A stretch of DNA of 40,889 nucleotides, taken from IMG/VR virus record IMGVR_UViG_3300020446_000022, positions 1 through 40,889 of that record. One strand, 5' to 3'. Each line of letters starts with the position of its first letter. Positions within the stretch are counted from its first letter, which is position 1. The DNA is from a virus. Under the pieces are notes generated by a model that saw only the letters and a list, made by a program, of their open reading frames with translations, did no database searches and was not told where the DNA came from. Of this stretch, positions 1,484-14,167 are shown one piece after another. The translations under genes and the position numbers were made by a program.

Positions 1484-3556
1484 TTAGTGTAAGTCAACCC
1501 ATGCTCCATTCGCACGACCTTGAAACTTGTTTGTACTTGTATTATATACGATAGAACCATTGATGACACCATTGAGATTATTCCTCTGTGTAGTGGTAAC
1601 TCTTGGCATAATCATGTGTCTAGTAGTGGTAAATCCAGCATTTCCAAAATCAACAGCAGATCTTGTAATAGTAATTCCTACACCAATCTGACCAAACAAT
1701 GCTTGTCCTTGACTACAATCTAATTGAGTTGCTGGTAAAATAGATGTTGTTTTAATACCAATTTCACCACCACCACTAATAACTAATCTTCCAACTGGTG
1801 ATGTGCCTACAGCAAAAGCATGACCACTTGCTGTAGTTCCAATACCAACTCCTCCTATATCAGGATCTTGATTAAATTCCGCTGCACCATTAACTTTTAA
1901 TCCTACAAATGTGGATACGCCACTATTTGCTAAAACATTACCTACTAAATTGGTTGTAATCGTAGGAACAGTCAAGTTACCTGCTGTAATTGTGTTTGCG
2001 ACTACAAGATTATTTGCAACACTTACGTTTGTTCCAAAGTATGCAGCACCAGTTACACGAGATGTACCAACAACATGAAGTTTATTAGTTGGAACTGTAA
2101 CTCCAATACCCAAATCCCCACCAAAAGTAAGAGACATAAGAGTAGAGAAACTCGACCTTCGATGCCAGTGGAATCCACCAGTATTTAAACCAACAGTACC
2201 CGCTTCGAGATAGTAGTTAAAGTTACCTTTACCATAGTTGATAATATCTAGAGACTCTTGGTTAGCACTATATGGGAATGAGGCATTTGTGGTATTCGAT
2301 CTTAATGATGCGTTATTACCTGTAATTGCAGTTCCCCTTCCTAATACTATCGCTGACTCCCCAGAAGCGTTATAAATCTGTAAATCTGTGGTAGGTGCAA
2401 TTCCTAATCCTAGATTTGCACTTTGTAGATTTCCAGTTACATTTACAGACCCACCGAATGTCGCACCAGATGATACGTTGACATCATCTAGAGTCGTAAG
2501 TCCAATAACATCTAGATGTGTGTTTACTGTCGCACCACCAGAATGAGTTGTTGCTCCTGTAAATGTGGTCACACCAGAGATAGAAACATTATCTAAATCT
2601 GTATGCCCATCAACATCTACACCACCAGATATATCTAAACTCGATGCTGTTACTGCTCCAACAGATATATTAGGTGTGCCTGATAAATTTGCAGCAGTTC
2701 CAGTAGTGTTTTGATTACCTGATGCATTTACACCTGGTAAATTTATATCAGCAGAACCATTGAAAGATACTCCTCCAATATTTCTCGCAGTTGCAAGAAT
2801 TGTTGCAGAGTCAGCGTTTCCAGTTACATCTCCAGTTACATCTCCAACAAAACTCGTAGCAGTTGCAACACCTGTGACCACAATACCAGATGGATTTGTA
2901 TCAAACTTGGAAGAATTAACTTCACCAGTTAGATCACCTGTGACATTACCAGTAACATTACCTGTCAATGCACCTTGAAGTGATGTTGCGGTTATAATAC
3001 CAGATACAACTACACCCGCAGCATTTGTGTCAAAGTTTGGTGCATTTACTTCTCCAACAAAACTCGTAGCAGTTACAATACCAGATGCAAATATATGTCC
3101 ACCATCAGAATTGATACCAACACCTGTGCTGAAATTGGTTGGATCTCCACCAACTTGAAAACTATTTCGAGGGTCATTAGTTGATACACCTACGTTTCCA
3201 CCTGTGTTGTAGATACTTGTGAATCCTAGTCCTACATCAATATCAACCCACTGTGAAGTTGGTAAGAATTTAAGATATTGACCATCCCCATAATAAGTAA
3301 CAATACCAGATGATGCTGTAATGATACCAGATTTTATTGAAGTTATACCTATGTCTACTGTTGAAAGTGATGTTATTCCTGTAACTTGAAGAGATATTGA
3401 AGAAGTTAGTCCGCTGACTACAGCATTACCTCTGACATCTAATCTCTCTGTGGGAACGGTGGTTCCAATTCCTACCAGACCTCCACGAACGGTAAAGTCA
3501 TCATCATCTACCTGAACACCATGTCTGAAATTAAAACTTTTATTGATACTCGCCAT
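1484..3556 (-). CDS. Tail fibre-like repeat protein, 690 aa
   Basis: This is a virion fibre-type protein typical of marine T4-like phages. Short beta-rich repeats built on VGIGTT, SGIITATS and GNVTGDLTGEV run through most of its length. The region around residues 160-260 repeats a roughly 45-residue unit (FDTN...G.VV.G...ATS). The C terminus (MIMPRVTTTQRNNL, then GSIVYNTSTNKFQ) resembles fibre tips that end in a short host-contact or trimerisation segment. Unlike the two giant fibres in this window it has no S74 chaperone domain. It is the last gene of the late block, after five oxygenase-like genes, with a late-promoter-like ATAAATA 20 bases upstream and a terminator downstream. A structural role is well supported; host-receptor binding is inferred. 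Confidence 0.8.
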   Translation of the reverse strand: MASINKSFNFRHGVQVDDDDFTVRGGLVGIGTTVPTERLDVRGNAVVSGLTSSISLQVTGITSLSTVDIGITSIKSGIITASSGIVTYYGDGQYLKFLPTSQWVDIDVGLGFTSIYNTGGNVGVSTNDPRNSFQVGGDPTNFSTGVGINSDGGHIFASGIVTATSFVGEVNAPNFDTNAAGVVVSGIITATSLQGALTGNVTGNVTGDLTGEVNSSKFDTNPSGIVVTGVATATSFVGDVTGDVTGNADSATILATARNIGGVSFNGSADINLPGVNASGNQNTTGTAANLSGTPNISVGAVTASSLDISGGVDVDGHTDLDNVSISGVTTFTGATTHSGGATVNTHLDVIGLTTLDDVNVSSGATFGGSVNVTGNLQSANLGLGIAPTTDLQIYNASGESAIVLGRGTAITGNNASLRSNTTNASFPYSANQESLDIINYGKGNFNYYLEAGTVGLNTGGFHWHRRSSFSTLMSLTFGGDLGIGVTVPTNKLHVVGTSRVTGAAYFGTNVSVANNLVVANTITAGNLTVPTITTNLVGNVLANSGVSTFVGLKVNGAAEFNQDPDIGGVGIGTTASGHAFAVGTSPVGRLVISGGGEIGIKTTSILPATQLDCSQGQALFGQIGVGITITRSAVDFGNAGFTTTRHMIMPRVTTTQRNNLNGVINGSIVYNTSTNKFQGRANGAWVDLH
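2841..2864. repeat. 24-bp direct repeat, copy 1 (within the 690-aa fibre gene)
   Basis: This 24-base segment starting tctccaacaaaactcg recurs exactly at 3051-3074. It encodes the SFVGE/D part of the fibre's repeat unit, so it reflects internal duplication of the protein repeat. Confidence 0.7.
3051..3074. repeat. 24-bp direct repeat, copy 2 (within the 690-aa fibre gene)
   Basis: Exact copy of 2841-2864, 210 bases away. The distance is a multiple of three, so recombination between the copies would keep the frame. Confidence 0.7.
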
Positions 3557-3575: not shown

Positions 3576-3582
3576 TATTTAT
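3576..3582 (-). promoter_or_regulatory. Late-promoter-like element before the 690-aa fibre
   Basis: ATAAATA on the minus strand, 20 bases before the fibre ATG and overlapping the TAA stop of the oxygenase upstream. It matches the TATAAATA late -10 of T4-like phages in 7 of 8 bases. Confidence 0.5.
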
Positions 3583-4202
3583 TCCTTTTCTTTGTTACCA
3601 AAAAAACTTGTGATAGCATATCTTCCGTATCCATCAAAGTAATCTGAATCATTGATTGAAACTTTACTTACACCATGCTCCACCCAACCAGGAAACATGA
3701 TGAGTGAGTTGTTATCACAAGCGAACTCGTAATTATATCTAGGGAACATTAATTCCCCACCCTCAAATCTTTTTGGTTCTCTATAAAAGTATGAAAATGC
3801 TAGAAATTGGTAGTTTCGATCCGTATGAGGATCATAGTAATCCCCATCATGATAATATCTAACTTTAGTAATATCCCAATTAGAGTGAACTACTGTTGAA
3901 CAACAATCATGTAATTGTCCAAAAGGTTCTAAAATTTGTTTATTAAATATTTTTCTATTTACTGTGAGTATATTGGATATACTTCGGAAGTCTTTACTAT
4001 AAAGTTTATCTAGTAGAATTGCTTTCGCACTCGTATATCCAACAACTCCACCATAATCTTTTGCTTCAAATAGTTTACTGGGTTTGGTGTAGAAATCTAG
4101 TTCTTCCCATATTAATTTAAGTTCCTTATCATTATAAAAATTATGAAATATAATATGTGGAAATGGGTCAACAAAAGCGTCAGCACTTATATTTTCTCTC
4201 AT
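3579..4202 (-). CDS. 2OG-Fe(II) oxygenase, prolyl-4-hydroxylase-like (207 aa)
   Basis: This is a 2-oxoglutarate and Fe(II)-dependent oxygenase by motif. The iron ligands are visible as H126-T-D128 and H176 (in FPGWVEHGV), with R194 (GYGRYAITSFFG) as the likely 2-oxoglutarate-binding residue. The stretch FEGGELMFP between them is typical of the prolyl-4-hydroxylase-like branch. Enzymes of this fold hydroxylate protein side chains, nucleobases or small molecules. The substrate cannot be read from sequence. It overlaps the preceding gene by ATGA and ends a run of overlapping oxygenase genes just before a tail-fibre gene, so a virion protein substrate is possible but unproven. Confidence 0.8.
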   Translation of the reverse strand: MRENISADAFVDPFPHIIFHNFYNDKELKLIWEELDFYTKPSKLFEAKDYGGVVGYTSAKAILLDKLYSKDFRSISNILTVNRKIFNKQILEPFGQLHDCCSTVVHSNWDITKVRYYHDGDYYDPHTDRNYQFLAFSYFYREPKRFEGGELMFPRYNYEFACDNNSLIMFPGWVEHGVSKVSINDSDYFDGYGRYAITSFFGNKEKE

Positions 4203-4675
4203 AATTCTACCTCTGTTTCCATTTTCACATCAAGAAATAAAAACTCTAGTGTCTCATTGCTTGGATTATGTGCTTCATGTATATAATCCATTACTTGATA
4301 GCATTGTGGTACACCACTTTCCCATGTTACTTTGTGACCATCCCATATCATATAACAACCGTTCGGAACTTTGGTTGGTATTTGTATTCTCTTATATCTA
4401 TGACTATAGGTATCAGGGTCTTTGTGTGGTTTTAATACTGTACCACCATCAGAAATTGAATACATTGAATTTAATATTTCATCATTTTTGTATATTTTAT
4501 ATACACTATCAGTCATTAATTTTTTTCTGATGTTTATATTTTTACGAACAAATTTTAGTTGACAACTATAAATTTTTTTGTTTGTGTAATTTGGACTCGT
4601 AGGATTTCCTTTCATTGGAAATTTCTTACTTATTGACCACTCATACAACTCTTCTAGTTCTTTTCTCGTAATCAT
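4199..4675 (-). CDS. Aspartyl/asparaginyl beta-hydroxylase-like 2OG oxygenase (158 aa)
   Basis: Residues 78-150 follow the Asp/Asn beta-hydroxylase pattern: H84-K-D86, then R96 in a KRIQIP strand, H133 or H136 in HEAHNPS, and a closing LEFLFLDV strand. This differs from the prolyl-hydroxylase-like pattern of its neighbour, so the two genes are not simple tandem copies. Family members hydroxylate Asp or Asn in proteins, or act on small molecules. ATGA overlaps on both sides place it in the same translationally coupled string. The fold is fairly sure; the substrate is unknown. Confidence 0.68.
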   Translation of the reverse strand: MITRKELEELYEWSISKKFPMKGNPTSPNYTNKKIYSCQLKFVRKNINIRKKLMTDSVYKIYKNDEILNSMYSISDGGTVLKPHKDPDTYSHRYKRIQIPTKVPNGCYMIWDGHKVTWESGVPQCYQVMDYIHEAHNPSNETLEFLFLDVKMETEVEL

Positions 4676-5133
4676 AATTTAGTAAAAACTCCCACGATTG
4701 CATTATTTAATTCAACATCGTAATGTTTATTTTCAAGTTTAGCATAGTCCATAAACTTAAGTCTTATACCATTAATAATTGGATCTCCACTGAAACATAT
4801 CAACCAACTTTTATCATTACCCACAAAAGAATCTTTAATTAATTCACCATTCCAATCTTGATCTGGTGTTAGTGGATTAAAACCAAAGATGTAAACATCC
4901 TCCTTGCAATGATATAATCTTTTTTCATAAAGATATTTTTTAGTATCAAATATCTCTCCATTAGGAATAATATCTATACAATTATCAAAAGGTTTTGCCA
5001 ACATGACAGATCCCTTGATGCAAATATGATAAATTGTGATATTGTCTGGATACCCATCTACAAAATAATCTCCTGATTTTGCTATTTCAGAACAAATTGA
5101 GAACTCCTCACATTTTTTAAAAAATCTTTTCAT
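4672..5133 (-). CDS. Unknown protein in oxygenase cluster, possibly cupin-like (153 aa)
   Basis: I do not recognise a named family. The sequence is rich in short beta strands (TIYHICIKGSVML, DVYIFGFNPL, SWLICFSGDPI), compatible with a double-stranded beta-helix or cupin fold, but no metal-binding HxH/HxD pair is obvious. It overlaps both neighbours by ATGA and lies in the middle of the oxygenase string between two fibre genes, so it is probably co-translated with them. A role in fibre assembly or modification would fit the position; that is inference only. Confidence 0.6.
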   Translation of the reverse strand: MKRFFKKCEEFSICSEIAKSGDYFVDGYPDNITIYHICIKGSVMLAKPFDNCIDIIPNGEIFDTKKYLYEKRLYHCKEDVYIFGFNPLTPDQDWNGELIKDSFVGNDKSWLICFSGDPIINGIRLKFMDYAKLENKHYDVELNNAIVGVFTKL

Positions 5134-5480
5134 AATTCCACCCTCCTCATTTTTAGTATTGATCTCAATCTATCTCTAAATTCATAGTTTATATTTTTCC
5201 CAACCAAATCTCGTAGGTTCAATTCTCCCTCTATCTTTTTACCATAGTTACAATACAATACTATTTCTGTTTCATCTTCCTGTTTCGCAACTCTATTTGA
5301 TCCATAATTTCTCATGAAACTATCCAAGAAAGTTTCAGTATCATATAAATCAAGTTTATCAAGATCAATGGCAAATGCCTTATGATTAAGTATGGGTTCT
5401 CTTGATGTCATTTTACAAACACGCACAACAATTTGATTTGTATCTGGTAAATATTCATCAACTCTGATAGTTACTTTCAT
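5130..5480 (-). CDS. Unknown conserved-looking protein in oxygenase cluster (116 aa)
   Basis: I do not recognise a domain. It opens with a strand-rich segment (MKVTIRVDEYLP) and ends with a basic segment (RSILKMRRVEL). There is no signal peptide or membrane helix. ATGA overlaps with both neighbours (5130-5133 and 5477-5480) argue that it is a real, coupled gene. By position it may be a small accessory of the fibre/oxygenase module. Confidence 0.6.
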   Translation of the reverse strand: MKVTIRVDEYLPDTNQIVVRVCKMTSREPILNHKAFAIDLDKLDLYDTETFLDSFMRNYGSNRVAKQEDETEIVLYCNYGKKIEGELNLRDLVGKNINYEFRDRLRSILKMRRVEL

Positions 5481-6160
5481 TTAAACATCTTCCAATATTT
5501 GGGATTGATATAACCTTGAGAATAATCTAATATCTCTGGTTTATATACGAGAGTAATATCACCAACTATTGCAAGTCTTTCACCTTCAAAAGAATCTCCA
5601 TGTAAATCTGTACAATGTCTAATCGAACTTGGAAATAATACTATATTTCCATCTTTTGGATGAAGAAAAAATGTTGATGAATTAACTTCATTAAATTCTC
5701 GTATTCCATGCTTATAATCACTTGTATTTAATCCAGCGAATAAACTGTTACTATTACTTGGATTTAAGAATTTAATAACATGAGAATTTTTTGGTGCATT
5801 AACATAATATGAAAAAGAAATGTGACTCGTAGAATGATTATGCCATTTAAGACTATCCGATGCACTTCTCGCTCTTGATAACCATGTTTTTGTAATTATT
5901 ATATCATATATCTTTTTATATTTCAACACATCATAGATATAATTCTCGACATGAGAAACTATATCTGTAAATAATGAATCAAGACTTTCCTCTAAATGTA
6001 AAAGTGGATTACCACTATTTTCACTAGTGGTATTGTGCCAACTATCCTCTTCATAATCAAATTTAGAGTACACTTTATAAAAATTATCCTTATATTCTTG
6101 ATGTTTGTCAAGATCACCAACATATAATGTTGTTGGAAATATATTAATTGACTGATACAT
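5477..6160 (-). CDS. Putative 2OG-Fe(II) oxygenase with HxH motif (227 aa)
   Basis: The layout resembles the phage 2OG-FeII_Oxy_5-type family. A tryptophan precedes H107-N-H109 (KWHNHS), followed by a strand SHISFSYYV. Then comes GNIVLFPSSIRHC with H182, and R195 in GERLAIVGDI. The usual H-x-D pair is replaced by H-x-H, seen in that family, so iron binding may be altered. It starts inside the end of the preceding oxygenase (17-bp overlap) and is coupled to the next gene by ATGA. The oxygenase fold is likely; catalytic activity is less sure. Confidence 0.65.
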   Translation of the reverse strand: MYQSINIFPTTLYVGDLDKHQEYKDNFYKVYSKFDYEEDSWHNTTSENSGNPLLHLEESLDSLFTDIVSHVENYIYDVLKYKKIYDIIITKTWLSRARSASDSLKWHNHSTSHISFSYYVNAPKNSHVIKFLNPSNSNSLFAGLNTSDYKHGIREFNEVNSSTFFLHPKDGNIVLFPSSIRHCTDLHGDSFEGERLAIVGDITLVYKPEILDYSQGYINPKYWKMFK

Positions 6161-6629
6161 ATCTATTCCACGGATTTATAAGCATTGAAACTCTATGACC
6201 AGAAAAATCTTTAACACAATGACAAGCTCCAGCAGCAAAAATTACCATTCTATTGGTCTTTGGTGTTATTATATCATCTTCAATTAGTAATTGTCCACCA
6301 AACAGATTTTTTACAGAGGAATAATAAACAATCGAACATAGTGGAAATTTTAATATGCCTTCATCTGCTAATTTTTCATCTTTATCTTGATGCCAATCTG
6401 GTGGTTTAGTGTTGAATCGAGTCCAAAACTCATATCCAACACATGATGATAAATCAACATATTTTCCAGCAAGATTAATTAATGAAATACAAAAATTATC
6501 ATATACGTGATTGTCGTTTAAATCATACCAAGTTGATTTACTTGAAGATTGATCCAATGCCATGTTTATTTTATCAACGGATATATCATCAAGAACGTTG
6601 TCTATTATAATACTAGTAGTCTGAATCAT
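6144..6629 (-). CDS. 2OG-Fe(II) oxygenase (161 aa)
   Basis: A short oxygenase with a complete-looking facial triad: H80-Q-D82 (PDWHQDKDE) and H137 (AAGACHCVKDF), with R146 (SGHRVSML) as the 2-oxoglutarate-binding arginine. GGQLLIEDD between them is the usual turn of the double-stranded beta-helix. It overlaps its neighbours by 17 bp on each side, which implies co-translation. The substrate is unknown. It differs in length and spacing from the adjacent oxygenases, so the cluster holds several divergent enzymes rather than recent copies. Confidence 0.75.
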   Translation of the reverse strand: MIQTTSIIIDNVLDDISVDKINMALDQSSSKSTWYDLNDNHVYDNFCISLINLAGKYVDLSSCVGYEFWTRFNTKPPDWHQDKDEKLADEGILKFPLCSIVYYSSVKNLFGGQLLIEDDIITPKTNRMVIFAAGACHCVKDFSGHRVSMLINPWNRYVSVN

Positions 6630-7200
6630 TTGCTTGAACTATTGCCCATGATGTTGCGATATATTTCTCCCCACCAAGAGGTGGATTCCCACGATGTGTA
6701 TGAGTAAATCCAGCAGGGAAAATTAGAACATCACCCACAGTTGCTTCTTCCCTTCGATTTTGATATAAAAACTCTGTTTCTCCTCCTTGAAAATCATCAT
6801 TGAGATATAATTGTATTACAAATTGTCTTGGTGTTGCACCAATAATACCATTCTCGTAATGCCAATTATGAAATCCACCACCTATTGGTATCTTTTTTAA
6901 TTTACAATCATAAATTAAAAACTTACTCCTGTTTAACACACTAAATGTTGTTATGTATTCATCCACACAAGGTTTAAATTTAGGTATAATGGAACTCGCT
7001 ACCCTACTTGTTACTGGTAGATCATAATCATAATCCCAACATACATTTATAGTTTTGTGATCCTCTTTATGAAGACCCTCTTTGTTATATGACAGAAAAC
7101 TATTATCCTCAAAAAAGTTTATGTCTTTAATTATTTTTTTGCAATCATCGGGCGAAAAGGCACCACGATAACGTCTTATTAAATCTGATTCAATTGGCAT
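6613..7200 (-). CDS. 2OG-Fe(II) oxygenase with H-x-E variant (195 aa)
   Basis: Residues 105-190 follow the prolyl-4-hydroxylase-like pattern: H114-Y-E116 (NWHYENG), then QGGETEFLY, then FPAGFTHTHRG with H167/H169, and K179 as a possible 2-oxoglutarate-binding lysine. The first pair is H-x-E instead of H-x-D; E can act as a ligand in some members. It is the first gene of the oxygenase string, with a late-type CTAAATA 21 bases upstream, so the string is probably expressed late with the virion genes. Family call good, substrate unknown. Confidence 0.75.
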   Translation of the reverse strand: MPIESDLIRRYRGAFSPDDCKKIIKDINFFEDNSFLSYNKEGLHKEDHKTINVCWDYDYDLPVTSRVASSIIPKFKPCVDEYITTFSVLNRSKFLIYDCKLKKIPIGGGFHNWHYENGIIGATPRQFVIQLYLNDDFQGGETEFLYQNRREEATVGDVLIFPAGFTHTHRGNPPLGGEKYIATSWAIVQANDSDY

Positions 7201-7227: not shown

Positions 7228-8253
7228 TTAGTTTTCTGTAACTCCTGTAGGTGGTGGATTAAATGCTCCCTTTATATTAACAGGTCCATTGATTGTTACA
7301 GAAATACCTGTATTGCTTCTTCTTATTGCTGCTCCATCAATGCCTCCTTCTCCTTTTGCTCCACCAGATCCTTCTCCACCTGCTCCTCTACCACCATCGT
7401 CTGCTGCTTCTCCATTTGATCCTCCTTCTCCACCTACACCACCAAATGCTTCATTACCATTATTACTTCCATTACCACCTTCTCCAGCAGTATCAGCAGT
7501 TCCAGAGGTACCAGGACCTCCTTGAGCTCCACCAGATCCACCGCCACCACCAGCACCAGCGGGAACTCCTGCTCCACCACCGCCACCAGCACCTGACGCT
7601 GTTCTTTCTGAATTTTTATCGTGGTCGTGACCACCGCCACCGCCACCTCCTCCACCAAATCCAGCAGAGATAATTGAACCACCAACTGAATTGATGGTTG
7701 TTGGTGAATATTGTACACCTAGACCACTAGTTCCATCATCACCATCTTCACCAGCACCAGAACCATTTGATCCTTCACCACCTTGTCCTCCCGCACCAGA
7801 TATTCTCGCACTGCTTCCTAAATCTATTTGTAGAGTAGTATTATTCCAACTGCCTGTAGTTAATGCACATCGATTGACTGTATTATTAGAATTTTGAGTT
7901 GAACCAATAGTTTTATCAACATGAATCATAACTTTTGCACCATTGCCAGCAGAAGGTTTATTATTTACGGACTTAAAACCACCGACAATCGTAATACCAT
8001 TTGCATCATACTTATCTCTTGCATCTTGTTGAAACTCTGTACTACCGCTATGATAGTTAACAACAATATTTAATTTTTTACTATAAAAGTCTGAAAAACT
8101 AATTGAACCAGTTTGAGGAACACCATTATCTAGTGGTAAATTTGATAATTCACCAATCGTTTGAGATACTCTATATGCTCCAAGTGATCCAGCATTTCCA
8201 AACTCGTTGCTTATATCACTAAAACTAATTTGTCCTGATGATTGTAGTGCCAT
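7228..8253 (-). CDS. Glycine-rich virion protein, possible fibre-tip adhesin (341 aa)
   Basis: The ATG at 8253 gives the N terminus MALQSSGQISFSDISNEFG, a start familiar from marine T4-like phage structural proteins, and lies 4 bases after the preceding fibre stop. A 63-base in-frame extension upstream would run through that fibre's coding end and is unlikely. ISFSD occurs twice near the N terminus. After about residue 150 the protein becomes a chain of Gly runs (one of eight Gly) split by short acidic, Ser or Asn segments. This resembles the polyglycine-helix tips of T-even gp38-type adhesins, in which the loops between Gly runs contact the host. The neighbours are fibre genes. The adhesin role is inference from composition and position. 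Confidence 0.72.
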   Translation of the reverse strand: MALQSSGQISFSDISNEFGNAGSLGAYRVSQTIGELSNLPLDNGVPQTGSISFSDFYSKKLNIVVNYHSGSTEFQQDARDKYDANGITIVGGFKSVNNKPSAGNGAKVMIHVDKTIGSTQNSNNTVNRCALTTGSWNNTTLQIDLGSSARISGAGGQGGEGSNGSGAGEDGDDGTSGLGVQYSPTTINSVGGSIISAGFGGGGGGGGGHDHDKNSERTASGAGGGGGAGVPAGAGGGGGSGGAQGGPGTSGTADTAGEGGNGSNNGNEAFGGVGGEGGSNGEAADDGGRGAGGEGSGGAKGEGGIDGAAIRRSNTGISVTINGPVNIKGAFNPPPTGVTEN

Positions 8254-8257
8254 GAGA

Positions 8258-11200
8258 TTAATGTGTGTGTTTTTTGAGTTCCTCGACCTCTTCTTTGAGT
8301 TCCTTGATTGCCTCAATTAAAAGAGGAACAAGTCTATCATACTGAACTGTGATGTACTTATCATCAACGGGTGCAGGGAATACTGCTTCTGGTAATACTT
8401 TTTGTACTTCTTGTGCAGATACACCAGCAAATGATTTCTCTGTGTCATATCCAAGTTCCCCACCAATCTTATTAAAGTTGTATGTGAAACCATTTAAGGA
8501 CATGACTTTATCTAATGCACCTGTGATGCCAACCTTATTAGTTTTTAATCTATCATCAGATACAAATGCGATGACATTGCCAGTGAAACTTCCTTGACCT
8601 GTAACAGATATGTTATTACCAAATGTGGATGTATTGTCTACATTTAATGTGCCATCAAGATCAGTATTACCAGTTACATTTAAAATATCTGTAATTTGAA
8701 CAGTGCCACCAGCAGAGTCTAATATTAGATTACCTGATGAAGTATCAATTTCATTGTCATTTGTAATTGCGACCTTAATATTTCCAAATGTACCTCCACC
8801 ACCAGTGAAGTTGTTTGATCCTAGATCAATGTCACTACCTACGGTCAATGACCCAGATACAGATACATCATCGTCAAGGGTAATTGTACCACCAGCAGAG
8901 TCAATTACTAAATTACCAGTGCTTGTGTCAATCTCATTATTTGCTGTGATACCAAATCTAATGTTATCAAATTGTGCACCATCATTACCAGTAACTTGTC
9001 CTGATATCACTGCTGTTCCTGATACTGTTAAGTTGTCAGTAATTTGAACAGTTCCACCAGCAGAGTCTAATATTAGATTACCTGATGAAGTATCAATTTC
9101 ATTAGCAGCAGTAATACCAATCTTCACACTATCAATGGTTGCACCTGTCGCAGTTAAACCACCAATGTTGTAAGTTTCTGTTCCTGTTCCAACTGTGCCA
9201 CTTGTTTCCTTACTTACAAGTTCAATCCAGTTTCCAGCATGAGCAAAGAATCCTTTTCCTACAGCGTGAACATGAGCGAACATACCATGATATGTGCCAG
9301 CATTTGGTAAATCAGAATAGTTAGCGTATAGTGATGGAATCTTATTCTGACCAGATATACCCTCTATGATACCATTTGCATCGATTAATCCTGCAAATGT
9401 GGATATACCAGCTACTGTTAAATCTCCTCCGATATTGGTATTTTTCTCAATACCCATACCACCTTCAATTACATAACAACCCTCATCTTTATTATTTGAT
9501 TGAGTTGTATCTGTAATTTCTAGAGTGCTATTAATTTTAAGTGTGCCTGTAATTGTACAGTTATCATTGACTTTAATTTCATTGTTGAACGTAACAGGAC
9601 CATCAAACTGTGATAACACTCGATTTGATTTACCACCCTCAACTATAATTCTCTCTTTAACAACTACCTCATCAAATATAACACTCAATCTTGATGGATC
9701 TTGACCTGTAACTGTTGGAGTTGGTGCATCAAATGTTGTCTCTTCACCAGTTGTAGATGTGACTCTCTTGTTTCCAATATAAAAGTCACCTCTGTTATTC
9801 ATACCAGTGTAAACAACAGCACCACCACTTTTCTCTTGCGATTGTGATAAGAACTCTTCTCTCTCTGTAAGTGTTCTGTTCTGAACCTGTGGTAGACCAG
9901 TTGAGTAGTTACCTGGACCAAAACCAAGATATTCAAAAGTGTGACCTGATGCACGAAGTATTGACGGTCTTCGGAACTCAACAGAAAGAGGTTTGATTTT
10001 TTTAACTATTGAATTTACTGCGTGACTCGCTTTTAAACTACCAAGCACACCTCGAATCACTGTAATTTCATCTAATCCAGATCCACTTAAAGATGAACTG
10101 GTGACTCTCATCATTTCATTATCAATCTGAATATATGATCCAATTGGTATACGAGTTACAGTGCCGATACCAGAATTAATAGGTGTAATTCTTAAATTCG
10201 TATCAATTACATTATTTGTAATTGCAGCAACAAGAGTAAATGATTGATTATCATAAAATGTTAAGTTTCTCGCACCAATACTTTCTGTTGTTGCATCTGA
10301 ATTTGCGTTTGATGAATTTAATCCGTTTGGTAATATACGAACACCAGCAAGATTTGAATTTGTAATTGCAGAGAAGTTAGTGACACTAATCTTCTCTTTT
10401 ACAGAGAATGTGCCTAGATTGTTGTTTGACGTATCAAGAACCGTAAATTTATTTCCTGATACAAATCCATGTGCTGACTGACATACAAAAGTTGATATTC
10501 CTGTAGCGGAATCAAATGTATCTGATGTAATAGTAACTGCTACACCAACATTAATTGCATATTGACCAGATATAATTAAAGGATCACCAGATGTCTTCGC
10601 AACAGAAACAGATGTTGTAGATGGGCAAGCAGTAATTCTATAATGTCCACCAGCAGTTGTACCAATACCTGTGATTTGTAGTACATCATTTTCACAACTT
10701 GATATTTCATTTTGAGTGATAGTGTATCTTGCATTACCATCTCCAGTTCCAATGGCAGTGGCATCAAAAAATAACCCTTCAGGTGTATAAGATGATCCAC
10801 CAGTAATAATATCTACATTGGAAACACCACCACCAGATACTACAACTCTCGCAGTTGCACCTTTCCATGTTCCTGAAGCAGAACCGCTTAACAATCTAAC
10901 ATTCTGGAATGTTCCATTATTATAAGCTGCACCACCTGTAATCGTACCAGTGCTAATACCACTGAAATTATGCTCTCGATTAAATCCGATGGTCGCGATA
11001 CCAGCAGATGAATCAACAGTTGCGATTGATAGACCAACACCAAAAACTTTAAGAACACTGTCAATAGATTCTCTAGTGATGCTCTTTTTAAGATCATTAG
11101 TTACAACTTCACCAAGAGGAGCTCTCTTTGCAAAAGATACAGCAGCAGGTGGGTTATCATTGAAGTTATCTTTATCTAATTGTGGATATAAATCAACTAC

Positions 11201-14167
11201 TTTCTGACTATACTTATTACCTGTAAATTCAGTAGGCATTGAATTATCTGCCTTCAAAATATAAAGATGATAGACACCATCCTGTACATTTTCAATATGA
11301 GGAGATATAGTCTCACTTCTATAAATGTAGAAGTTAGATTTAAGATCGTTTCTTTCAAATCTTGGTAGATCTGTATTTCTGATAGTTACATCATTGGTAG
11401 AATTTGTACCTGTGCTATGAACAACACCATCTACATCAGTTGTGGAATATTTAAACTGTTTATCATTAGTAATTTCAGATACAGAGAATGTGCCATTGAA
11501 TCCTAAATTGTCTGTACCAGCAGTATTTGTGCTACTTGTGACATTCTTAACTATGATATCATCACCAACATTCAAGTCATGAGGTATTTCACTAATGACA
11601 GTTACAATATTAGATGTTTGTGTACAAGTTCCAATAAATCTTGGATTACGATTAAAATCAAAGTCTGCTGTAGTTAAATTTGATAATCCAACATCAGCGT
11701 TCTTTCTGAATCCTGTACTACTTGACTCCTGTATAATAAAACTTTCTTCTGGATTTTTTGTATTAGGAAGTTCTTTTGGTATTGCGACACGAACTCTATA
11801 AATTTTATCGTCAAGTGATCTGTCATCATCTCTTCTTGTGAGGAATGATGTCTTTGTTTTTACTATCCCAGAACTTGAATTGATTGATGTATATGCACTG
11901 TTTGTTGTTGCAACTTTAATAAACCACTGTGAGTTTACATCATCATATTGAATTGGTGATCCAATTTCACCTGCTTCCTTGTCATGAACACGACTTACGA
12001 TTGATAATTTTGTACCTTGAAAGACTGTAATCGCTGTATTATTGTTAGCGTTAGTAAGAGTTGATGCAAGTTTGATTTGTGTATCTGAATCTCTGATCGC
12101 AAAGTAAACTTTATTTTCTTCTATATTTTCTGGTAAATCACCATCATCACTGAATATTCTTACCTTCTCACCTGTCTGAATTGTATGAGTTGGAACTGTG
12201 AATACATTGTTTGTAGGACCAGATGTAACTACATATCTTTTCTCACTTGTATTTGTTCCAATACCTATTGTAGATCCAGCACCGATGATATTATCAAGCA
12301 TCTGAATATGTGCTGTGACAGTTGCTGCTGATCCAACTTGAACGGATAATGAATCATCAATTTTTGCACCAACTCGATAACCTTGAATTAAAATTGGTGG
12401 TGCATCATCTTTATCTTCAAATCCAAAGAGATACAAATGACTTGATATACCAACTGATTTTGTTTTTGTAACATCAAGTTGTAACCAATCAATAGGTAAA
12501 CTTTTGGTTGTGATTGCTTTCGGAGTGATAATTGATGTTATAAATCCTTTGTTATCTTTTGCAAATGCTTCTTTCTTAAATCCTTCAGCAACAAGTGATA
12601 TTTGTCCAAAGTTTGAGTTTGAGTTAGTGATAGATGCATCACCACCTGATTGAGCATCGAAATGTTTATTGTAACCTATTGCAAATACAGATACAACCTG
12701 TAAAACTGCATCATTAATAATTGATATATGAGTTGTATCCCATCCAGTTCGATATATCGCACCTGAATCTAAATGATAAACTGTGGATTGATCTAAAGAT
12801 GAAGATTGTGTTGATAATGCAGATCCTTTTACAGTTGTAAGTGCGATACCCTCATATAATCTATTTGTTGGATTATATTTTACAAATGCTCTATCATCTT
12901 TCTGCAATGAAATACCAGTAAACTGGGCAACAACCATTGAACGGAATCCATTTGCCTTTTTACCATCTGCTTTCATTCCCTGCATACCAAATACTGATCT
13001 TAATGAACAGTTAAAGATATAAGGGGATGCACCAGATACAGTATCTGTTTCAACAGTAATTGTTGCAGAAGAAATGTTTGGTGTTGCTGGTAAGTTTTCT
13101 CGTACAAAAGGTAAAACATATGTAAACTGTTTACTATTTGCAACAGTTGCCACCTTTGTTGAAATATTATAGTCGACTGGAGTAACACCTCTTATCTTTA
13201 TTGGTGTTCCTACATTTAATCCATGATCTTGTGGAGTTGATACAGTCACAACAGAACCAGGTGTATTTCCATCTCCAGAAATAATACTACCGCCTGATAC
13301 AGGGATGGGGTCAGATTTAAATGCACCAACTATCTCAAATTCCATTCTCTGTTTTGAGAACCCAAGAGTATTTGAGGGGAACTTTTGATCAATATCTCTA
13401 CCTGATGCTAAATTAAAGGCATTGGATAGTTTACTATAATACATATCCAAATCAGTGATGGTATAACCTGGTGGGTTATTAACACCATCTGCATATTCAA
13501 AACATGTTAGTTTGTGATGAGAAAAAGTAGGTTTTGCTTGATTAGTTGTAGAGAAATCAGAATCATCTGTATATACAAGACCTGTATCAAGACCATCAAA
13601 GAAAGAAAACTGCCAAAAGTAACAACCACCAGTAATTCTAAAAATTGCAGATGTTCCAACACTTGGATCAGTTGGATTTGGAACATATAGAGGTCTGATT
13701 TTTGTTTTTCTTAAATCAAGACCAACAATTGACGTACCACGAGGGATAATACATCCACCATTTATACTATTAAACTTATAAAGAATATTATCTTCTTGAG
13801 TTAAATCAAAATTAGATGTAAGATTTAGAGTTAAAGTATCTTGTGCAACAGTACCAACACCACCTGATGGGGGAACTGCGTATGCAGTACCACTATTATT
13901 ATAGATTGCAAAACCAGGTCTATTATCAATTACATGATCACCAGGATATACTAATATTGTTGTCTTTTCGGTTATATCATTATTTGTTCCCCTTACATAT
14001 GAAAATCTCGCAGATTCAAGCAGAGCTCTTTGAATCGTTTTAAATGGTTGTGCTAATGAATTACCTTGATTTGATATACTATCAGTAGCATCCAGATCAT
14101 TAGGATTTACATAGAGAATTTTTCCCTCTGTGTTCTTTATAAAATTCTCTAACTTATTAAGAGGCAT
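8258..14167 (-). CDS. Giant tail fibre/virion protein with C-terminal S74 chaperone (1969 aa)
   Basis: Residues about 15-90 (LYVNPNDLDATD, SLAQPFKTIQRALLESARF) look like a DUF1565/pectate-lyase-type beta-helix start. A long beta-rich shaft follows. Near residues 1640-1850 there are three copies of a unit centred on NEIDTS(S/T)GNL.(L/I)DSAGGT. The last 100 residues are an intramolecular chaperone of the endosialidase/Peptidase_S74 type: S1870 starting SDDRLKTN, then GVSAQEVQKVLPEAV, YDRLVPLLIEAIKEL and a coiled-coil end. In that family the chaperone trimerises the shaft and is cut off just before the conserved Ser. A mid-protein segment (HTFEYLGFGP...NRGDFYIG) is shared with the 958-aa protein. 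A late-type ATAAATA lies 31 bases upstream. Confidence 0.85.
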   Translation of the reverse strand: MPLNKLENFIKNTEGKILYVNPNDLDATDSISNQGNSLAQPFKTIQRALLESARFSYVRGTNNDITEKTTILVYPGDHVIDNRPGFAIYNNSGTAYAVPPSGGVGTVAQDTLTLNLTSNFDLTQEDNILYKFNSINGGCIIPRGTSIVGLDLRKTKIRPLYVPNPTDPSVGTSAIFRITGGCYFWQFSFFDGLDTGLVYTDDSDFSTTNQAKPTFSHHKLTCFEYADGVNNPPGYTITDLDMYYSKLSNAFNLASGRDIDQKFPSNTLGFSKQRMEFEIVGAFKSDPIPVSGGSIISGDGNTPGSVVTVSTPQDHGLNVGTPIKIRGVTPVDYNISTKVATVANSKQFTYVLPFVRENLPATPNISSATITVETDTVSGASPYIFNCSLRSVFGMQGMKADGKKANGFRSMVVAQFTGISLQKDDRAFVKYNPTNRLYEGIALTTVKGSALSTQSSSLDQSTVYHLDSGAIYRTGWDTTHISIINDAVLQVVSVFAIGYNKHFDAQSGGDASITNSNSNFGQISLVAEGFKKEAFAKDNKGFITSIITPKAITTKSLPIDWLQLDVTKTKSVGISSHLYLFGFEDKDDAPPILIQGYRVGAKIDDSLSVQVGSAATVTAHIQMLDNIIGAGSTIGIGTNTSEKRYVVTSGPTNNVFTVPTHTIQTGEKVRIFSDDGDLPENIEENKVYFAIRDSDTQIKLASTLTNANNNTAITVFQGTKLSIVSRVHDKEAGEIGSPIQYDDVNSQWFIKVATTNSAYTSINSSSGIVKTKTSFLTRRDDDRSLDDKIYRVRVAIPKELPNTKNPEESFIIQESSSTGFRKNADVGLSNLTTADFDFNRNPRFIGTCTQTSNIVTVISEIPHDLNVGDDIIVKNVTSSTNTAGTDNLGFNGTFSVSEITNDKQFKYSTTDVDGVVHSTGTNSTNDVTIRNTDLPRFERNDLKSNFYIYRSETISPHIENVQDGVYHLYILKADNSMPTEFTGNKYSQKVVDLYPQLDKDNFNDNPPAAVSFAKRAPLGEVVTNDLKKSITRESIDSVLKVFGVGLSIATVDSSAGIATIGFNREHNFSGISTGTITGGAAYNNGTFQNVRLLSGSASGTWKGATARVVVSGGGVSNVDIITGGSSYTPEGLFFDATAIGTGDGNARYTITQNEISSCENDVLQITGIGTTAGGHYRITACPSTTSVSVAKTSGDPLIISGQYAINVGVAVTITSDTFDSATGISTFVCQSAHGFVSGNKFTVLDTSNNNLGTFSVKEKISVTNFSAITNSNLAGVRILPNGLNSSNANSDATTESIGARNLTFYDNQSFTLVAAITNNVIDTNLRITPINSGIGTVTRIPIGSYIQIDNEMMRVTSSSLSGSGLDEITVIRGVLGSLKASHAVNSIVKKIKPLSVEFRRPSILRASGHTFEYLGFGPGNYSTGLPQVQNRTLTEREEFLSQSQEKSGGAVVYTGMNNRGDFYIGNKRVTSTTGEETTFDAPTPTVTGQDPSRLSVIFDEVVVKERIIVEGGKSNRVLSQFDGPVTFNNEIKVNDNCTITGTLKINSTLEITDTTQSNNKDEGCYVIEGGMGIEKNTNIGGDLTVAGISTFAGLIDANGIIEGISGQNKIPSLYANYSDLPNAGTYHGMFAHVHAVGKGFFAHAGNWIELVSKETSGTVGTGTETYNIGGLTATGATIDSVKIGITAANEIDTSSGNLILDSAGGTVQITDNLTVSGTAVISGQVTGNDGAQFDNIRFGITANNEIDTSTGNLVIDSAGGTITLDDDVSVSGSLTVGSDIDLGSNNFTGGGGTFGNIKVAITNDNEIDTSSGNLILDSAGGTVQITDILNVTGNTDLDGTLNVDNTSTFGNNISVTGQGSFTGNVIAFVSDDRLKTNKVGITGALDKVMSLNGFTYNFNKIGGELGYDTEKSFAGVSAQEVQKVLPEAVFPAPVDDKYITVQYDRLVPLLIEAIKELKEEVEELKKHTH
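8706..8755. repeat. 50-bp direct repeat, copy 1 (1969-aa fibre gene)
   Basis: This 50-base segment starting ccaccagcagagtct is identical at 9054-9103. It encodes the core of the NEIDTSSGNLILDSAGG unit. A third, diverged copy lies between them near 8891-8940. Confidence 0.8.
9054..9103. repeat. 50-bp direct repeat, copy 2 (1969-aa fibre gene)
   Basis: Identical to 8706-8755 and offset by 348 bases (116 codons), so exchange between copies would keep the frame and remove or add two protein repeat units. Confidence 0.8.

Follow-up and report, generated by a model that had tools for sequence, protein, structure and literature searches.

Between the gene of a glycine-rich, adhesin-like protein (GLY) and a uvsW-type helicase gene, marine phages of the T4 type keep a variable slot that, in the loci gathered here, is nearly always occupied by genes of the 2-oxoglutarate (2OG)-Fe(II) oxygenase superfamily. 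The instance that we analysed lies in one IMG/VR virus record (IMGVR_UViG_3300020446_000022), the 40,889 bases of which make up what we call the window; its gene content is of the T4/cyanophage type and its source is a marine virus. Seven tightly packed open reading frames (ORFs), named A to G, fill positions 3579-7200, all on the minus strand, and five of them (A, B, C, F and G) are assigned to this superfamily. We read the slot as a late, swappable island for side-chain modification of the adhesin and fibres, a reading in which our belief and our doubt weigh about the same, and for which we infer substrate, reaction and purpose. The changing set of such enzymes that relatives keep there suggests, without proving it, that the virus alters the chemistry of its own fibres, with which it touches the host. 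Cyanophages carry many oxygenases, and some halogenases, usually classed among the genes of host metabolism; with a conserved slot that is tied to an adhesin, the question of their substrate becomes directly testable.

On the minus strand the genes follow in the order TF529, GLY, A, B, C, D, E, F, G, FIB1, uvsW. TF529 (8258-14167) is a large tail fibre protein with an S74 chaperone end (phrog_529, PF13884). The slot has two fixed edges: upstream GLY itself (7228-8247; tail fiber family phrog_11439, E 2e-7) and downstream the helicase (170-1342), which is 60-65% identical to the helicases annotated in S-SCSM1 and P-SSM2 and is directly preceded by the tail fibre FIB1 (1484-3556; phrog_3269, E 1e-73). 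An initial annotation, made from the letters alone, had described an overlapping string of seven genes, and the ORF coordinates confirm it: A and B, as well as B and C, overlap by 17 bp, and each of the pairs C/D, D/E, E/F and F/G by the four bases ATGA. The neighbourhood that it had noted, a Gly-rich protein and fibres, stands as well, with GLY and TF529 upstream and FIB1 downstream, as does the late-type element said to precede the string, which is CTAAATA at 7227-7221 on the minus strand, 27 nt upstream of A. Compared with isolates at the DNA level, the window gave fragmentary matches only.

A recurrent slot behind the adhesin-like gene

Seeding with B, E, A and GLY brought together about 70 related IMG/VR loci that have a common frame, made of a tail fibre, GLY, variable genes and uvsW, with FIB1 placed on either side of GLY. 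The set seeded with GLY involves no selection for oxygenases, and at least one oxygenase comes before uvsW or the contig end in 18 of its 19 loci with downstream sequence. Labelled oxygenases are present in 34 of 35 complete GLY-uvsW slots, with a mean of 2.9 and in 30 arrangements. A or B directly follows GLY in 68 of 75 distinct cases, in a set partly recruited via A and B, and GLY-A or GLY-B-A persists as the gene order even between deeply diverged loci. The placement of oxygenases behind GLY recurs in many marine phages, and what is observed in the window is part of a wider pattern, beyond a single sequence. One genome (G001) even has a second GLY copy (L173:1429-4904), followed by a sulfotransferase, a 185-residue protein of unknown kind and a G-type oxygenase, which makes a second instance of the association of GLY with enzymes in the same genome.

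The timing of expression can be read from the junctions. TAAATA is found 18-45 nt upstream of nine of the 33 window genes, against about 0.6 expected, an over-representation that fits late expression, and the late-type element ahead of A is present both in the window and in 13 of 39 GLY-A junctions. In the branch of relatives where B comes first, B starts 3-15 nt past the GLY stop, and GLY and B are therefore very likely co-transcribed. The late-type element or, in relatives, this short gap to the Gly-rich gene implies co-expression.

Other enzymes come and go in the slot. Sister-branch slots encode, on the opposite strand, a flavin-dependent tryptophan-halogenase (PF04820, E 2e-86), in a cluster of 17 ORFs, L048:6214-7749 and 16 related ones; L172:9217-10737 is a halogenase ORF too, and like L048:6214-7749 it is on the minus strand. 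The halogenase adjoins a DUF6356 gene. Single slots hold sulfotransferases (PF03567) or a JmjC_2 oxygenase (PF08007). These enzymes likewise make changes of the side-chain type, which supports the reading of a modification island, and the halogenase gives a hint that cyanophage halogenases act on a fibre or an adhesin. For slot proteins of 180, 197 and 227 residues, the Pfam and PDB searches that were made gave no relatives. One conserved slot protein, of 170-180 residues (L081:7344-7886, plus strand, and five relatives), has no Pfam or PDB relative; the pattern N-F-I-V-E / V-D-x-Q-S in it brings kinase-like folds to mind, as an impression only.

The seven proteins of the string

Five divergent oxygenases with H-x-D, H-x-E and H-x-H motifs had been proposed, and Pfam matches together with conserved metal residues bear this out. 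A (6613-7200) and G (3579-4202) match PF13640 (E 5e-8 and 6e-8), C (5477-6160) matches PF13759 (E 7e-13) and F (4199-4675) matches PF05118 (E 1e-8), all above the cut-off. B (6144-6629), taken alone, reaches 23.6 bits against PF13640 (E 1e-4), under the 27-bit cut-off; the same family is matched by 21 of 24 B homologues (best E 7e-10), and it is via these homologues that we assign B to the superfamily. In all five the metal-binding residues are invariant or near-invariant, as read from alignments that comprise 13 to 24 sequences for each gene. The conserved triads are H114-x-E116...H169 in A, H80-x-D82...H137 in B (where H80, D82, H137 and R146 are invariant), H107-x-H109...H182 in C, H84-x-D86...H133 in F and H126-x-D128...H176 in G; the motif continues to a lysine in A, and to an arginine in B, C and G. 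C departs from the H-x-D/E pattern, and this is not decay, because all aligned PF13759 relatives, including the solved 3bvc, share H-x-H.

To judge from their sequences, the five are of clearly different kinds and are not recent duplicates. The family profile of A matches the bacterial prolyl 4-hydroxylases (P4Hs) 5c5t and 3itq, and also 5hv0, at 3e-12, over profile positions 4-184, near full length, and the lysyl hydroxylase LH3 at 6e-5; A resembles the prolyl 4-hydroxylases of procollagen type, its closest solved relatives. B makes a group of its own. C is of the PF13759 type, and F is like the aspartyl/asparaginyl beta-hydroxylases: its homologues in P-HM1/P-HM2 (41-44%) carry the annotation D/B-b-hydroxylase. 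A profile search of PDB with F gave no match, and seeding a scan of viral contigs with F gave no confirmed hit, even though F homologues exist there. G is weakly related to the PKHD-type/PiuC enzymes, its family profile giving weak matches to 3dkq and PiuC. DNA repair by an AlkB-type enzyme was considered and is not favoured, Pfam giving no match to such a family above cut-off in the window.

The two remaining proteins had been put down as unknown, which holds for one of them. Structure prediction, a check that the initial annotation had proposed, was run on both. E (4672-5133) is predicted with high confidence to be a bicupin, a double-stranded beta-helix, without the 2OG metal triad or other conserved metal ligands: its AlphaFold model has a predicted local distance difference test score (pLDDT) of 93.5, Foldseek matches it to PDB cupins (YhaK/pirin, TMq 0.66; HutD, 0.62) and no invariant or near-invariant histidine is seen among 33 sequences. 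Metal-binding histidines are present in many but not all cupins. With E a predicted bicupin, six of the seven proteins therefore probably have the double-stranded beta-helix in common. D (5130-5480), a small protein and conserved partner of E, with a family of 24 sequences, gave a model with a pLDDT of 81, the fold of which has no match in PDB below E 0.5.

Adhesin and fibres as candidate substrates

In the reading that we prefer, the seven genes would fill a variable slot, expressed late, that lies between the Gly-rich adhesin-like gene and uvsW, and the oxygenases of this slot would hydroxylate side chains of the phage's own GLY, of the neighbouring fibres, or of both, during their synthesis. 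The P4H-like A would act first of all on GLY; F would take Asp/Asn, and other positions would fall to B, C and G. D and E would probably have helper roles, for instance in assembly or as carriers. By swapping 2OG oxygenases, halogenase, sulfotransferase and JmjC enzymes, phages may vary the chemistry of the surface with which they meet the host and, if this is true, they vary host contact through chemistry instead of sequence. GLY probably contacts the host. Gly-rich tip adhesins of the gp38 type, in T-even phages such as S16, for which PMC6957217 cites the structure paper, are encoded near long tail-fibre genes; GLY has this composition and this location in common with them, and differs in that it has no sequence match to solved structures (no PDB match up to E 0.1, gp38 included). 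We know of no oxygenase island beside gp38-type adhesins. Extended to marine T4-like phages at large, the proposal becomes that of a combinatorial island for post-translational modification, locked to the adhesin gene, where enzymes are swapped and the side chains of the receptor-binding tip diversified. To this broader form we give tentative credit; it would provide a natural substrate class for cyanophage flavin halogenases such as VirX1.

Divergence of A appears to track that of GLY, and not that of FIB1 or uvsW. The Mantel correlation between A and GLY is 0.82 (n = 58), and 0.70 given FIB1, against 0.08 between A and FIB1 and 0.07 between A and uvsW, both given GLY. In 14 whole records, with rotation as the null, 45 2OG genes are found within 10 kb of TF529 for 19.6 expected (p 0.0006), and 31 for 16.2 in isolates only (p 0.009), an enrichment which is only indicative, because the records were partly picked via matches to these very genes. 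The idea of a module modifying virion proteins, already present in the initial annotation, thus gains from the divergence of the oxygenases, the signs of co-expression, the placement behind GLY and the co-divergence of A with GLY. In its strict form, as a role restricted to fibres, it suffers from the homologues of B and G in the replication block, from the isolate 2OG genes, mostly off-fibre, and from the existence of GLY without A.

Weighing against the modification of adhesin and fibres, besides the choice of records just mentioned, is a series of observations. Adjacency of A and GLY by itself raises co-divergence, and the share of linkage is inseparable here. One GLY-uvsW slot (L155) has no oxygenase; in another genome (G007) GLY is present without A, the order being C-GLY-D-E-halogenase-sulfotransferase; in AG-345-D19 a slot without oxygenase has D-E placed between GLY and a fibre, so that D-E and the oxygenases are separable. 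The A family has members in isolates that lack this GLY. Rich in glycine, GLY contains little proline, and the one proline that is conserved in it does not follow the presence of A, being found also where A is absent; nor is there any obvious relation between a residue signature in GLY (Pro, Lys, Asn and Asp content) and the enzyme set. Most isolate 2OG genes lie away from the main fibre gene. In the replication block of related phages, far from fibres, B homologues (about 50-59% identity) are located between thyX and phoH, while the G homologues there (61-63%) have an exonuclease gene on one side and gp59 on the other; these four genes are named by comparison with annotated cyanophages. Single insertions of B or G homologues outside the slot are seen in L029, L016, L024, L027, L028 and L008, and the window's own corresponding block (37.5-40.3 kb) has no B or G homologue. 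To judge by this homology, the same enzymes are housed now in one and now in the other of two genome sites.

Such alternation is what one would expect if the slot were a recombination hotspot for unrelated late cargo, its position being without functional meaning and its oxygenases serving 2OG/nitrogen balance, DNA or RNA repair, or hydroxylation of host proteins. The scatter of 2OG genes across isolate genomes and the presence of DNA-methylase-like and helicase-like genes in some slots go in this direction, and nitrogen/2OG balance or DNA-repair roles have been proposed for cyanophage 2OG genes (PMC3037559, PMC2984593). Yet oxygenases, present in 34 of the 35 slots, are far commoner there than other cargo, the order GLY-A or GLY-B-A is deeply kept, A diverges with GLY rather than with uvsW, and the window has no match above cut-off to AlkB or DNA-demethylase families. 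We consider the hotspot unlikely, while counting it, with the glycan or metabolite chemistry discussed below, among the serious rivals to modification of adhesin and fibres.

Comparable clusters in other viruses

The initial annotation had it that cyanophages are known to carry single oxygenases; the usual number is in fact 1-5 per genome, and S-SCSM1 has 24 (PMC9602691). Four of these stand in a row between helicase and tail-fibre genes. In syn9, an isolated phage grown in the laboratory (L169:9986-19626), the fibre genes are directly followed by two halogenases and then by a stretch encoding about seven proteins of the 2OG or JmjC kind, and in both Syn9 and Sf-CH11 halogenases and several oxygenases are directly beside fibre or structural genes. 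Five oxygenases within 3.6 kb are real, but the claim that this density is unusual is weakened, because S-SCSM1 and syn9 show the like. The new part seems to be the adhesin-linked setting, apparently undescribed: we found no paper linking oxygenases or halogenases to phage fibres in the non-subscription literature searched. Cyanomyovirus 2OG sets (S-SCSM1; gene clusters of Sullivan et al., 2010) have the families PF13640 and PF13759 in common with the window, and differ in being described as auxiliary metabolic genes without an adhesin link; S-SCSM1 has no recognisable GLY.

Iyer et al. (2021; PMC7824862) interpreted the halogenase/2OG/cupin/carbamoyltransferase cluster of the jumbo cyanophage S-SSM6a as the chemistry of a secondary metabolite or a capsule. 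Like the window, this cluster combines several 2OG oxygenases with cupin-like folds behind fibre genes. The slot might then make or decorate a non-protein molecule, be it a halogenated or hydroxylated secondary metabolite, a sugar of capsule or lipopolysaccharide, or a host receptor glycan, for a purpose such as excluding rival phages, its linkage to an adhesin reflecting receptor specificity matched to surface chemistry. Homologues of B and A adjoin sugar-nucleotide/glycosyltransferase clusters in Sf-FS3, a B homologue lies beside a glycan cluster in S-SCSM2R, and the slot sulfotransferases could act on glycans; all this, with the published reading of S-SSM6a, speaks for such chemistry. We nevertheless find the non-protein alternative rather doubtful. 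A Pfam scan finds in the window slot no carbamoyltransferase, glycosyltransferase, methyltransferase or methylase, and no halogenase, the S-SSM6a halogenase having its counterpart in sister slots only. Late-type expression and the 3-15 nt coupling to the adhesin suit virion proteins better than receptor masking, and the S-SSM6a cluster itself begins directly behind a run of long structural/fibre genes.

For modification of viral proteins there is a precedent in proposal. Hydroxylation of viral proteins is the role suggested for the prolyl 4-hydroxylase of the Chlorella virus PBCV-1 (Eriksson, 1999, cited in PMC9301287), and the Baltic Sea study that cites it calls the use of viral P4H unknown (PMC9301287). 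PBCV-1 has a virus-encoded P4H as the window does; it differs in being a eukaryotic algal virus, with no phage adhesin link.

Two other strings of enzyme genes were seen. In another IMG/VR virus (L130:3766-12357, plus strand) nine of thirteen consecutive ORFs belong to the P4H family, and neither GLY nor a fibre gene is recognised in their vicinity. Finally, in AG-345-L05 (L008:20018-27365, minus strand) a long fibre-like gene is directly followed by a P4H-like gene, and the string continues with genes for a possible sulfotransferase and a possible glycosyltransferase, then with one that is carbamoyltransferase-like; with all but the P4H assigned by eye, this would be a second kind of fibre-linked enzyme string.

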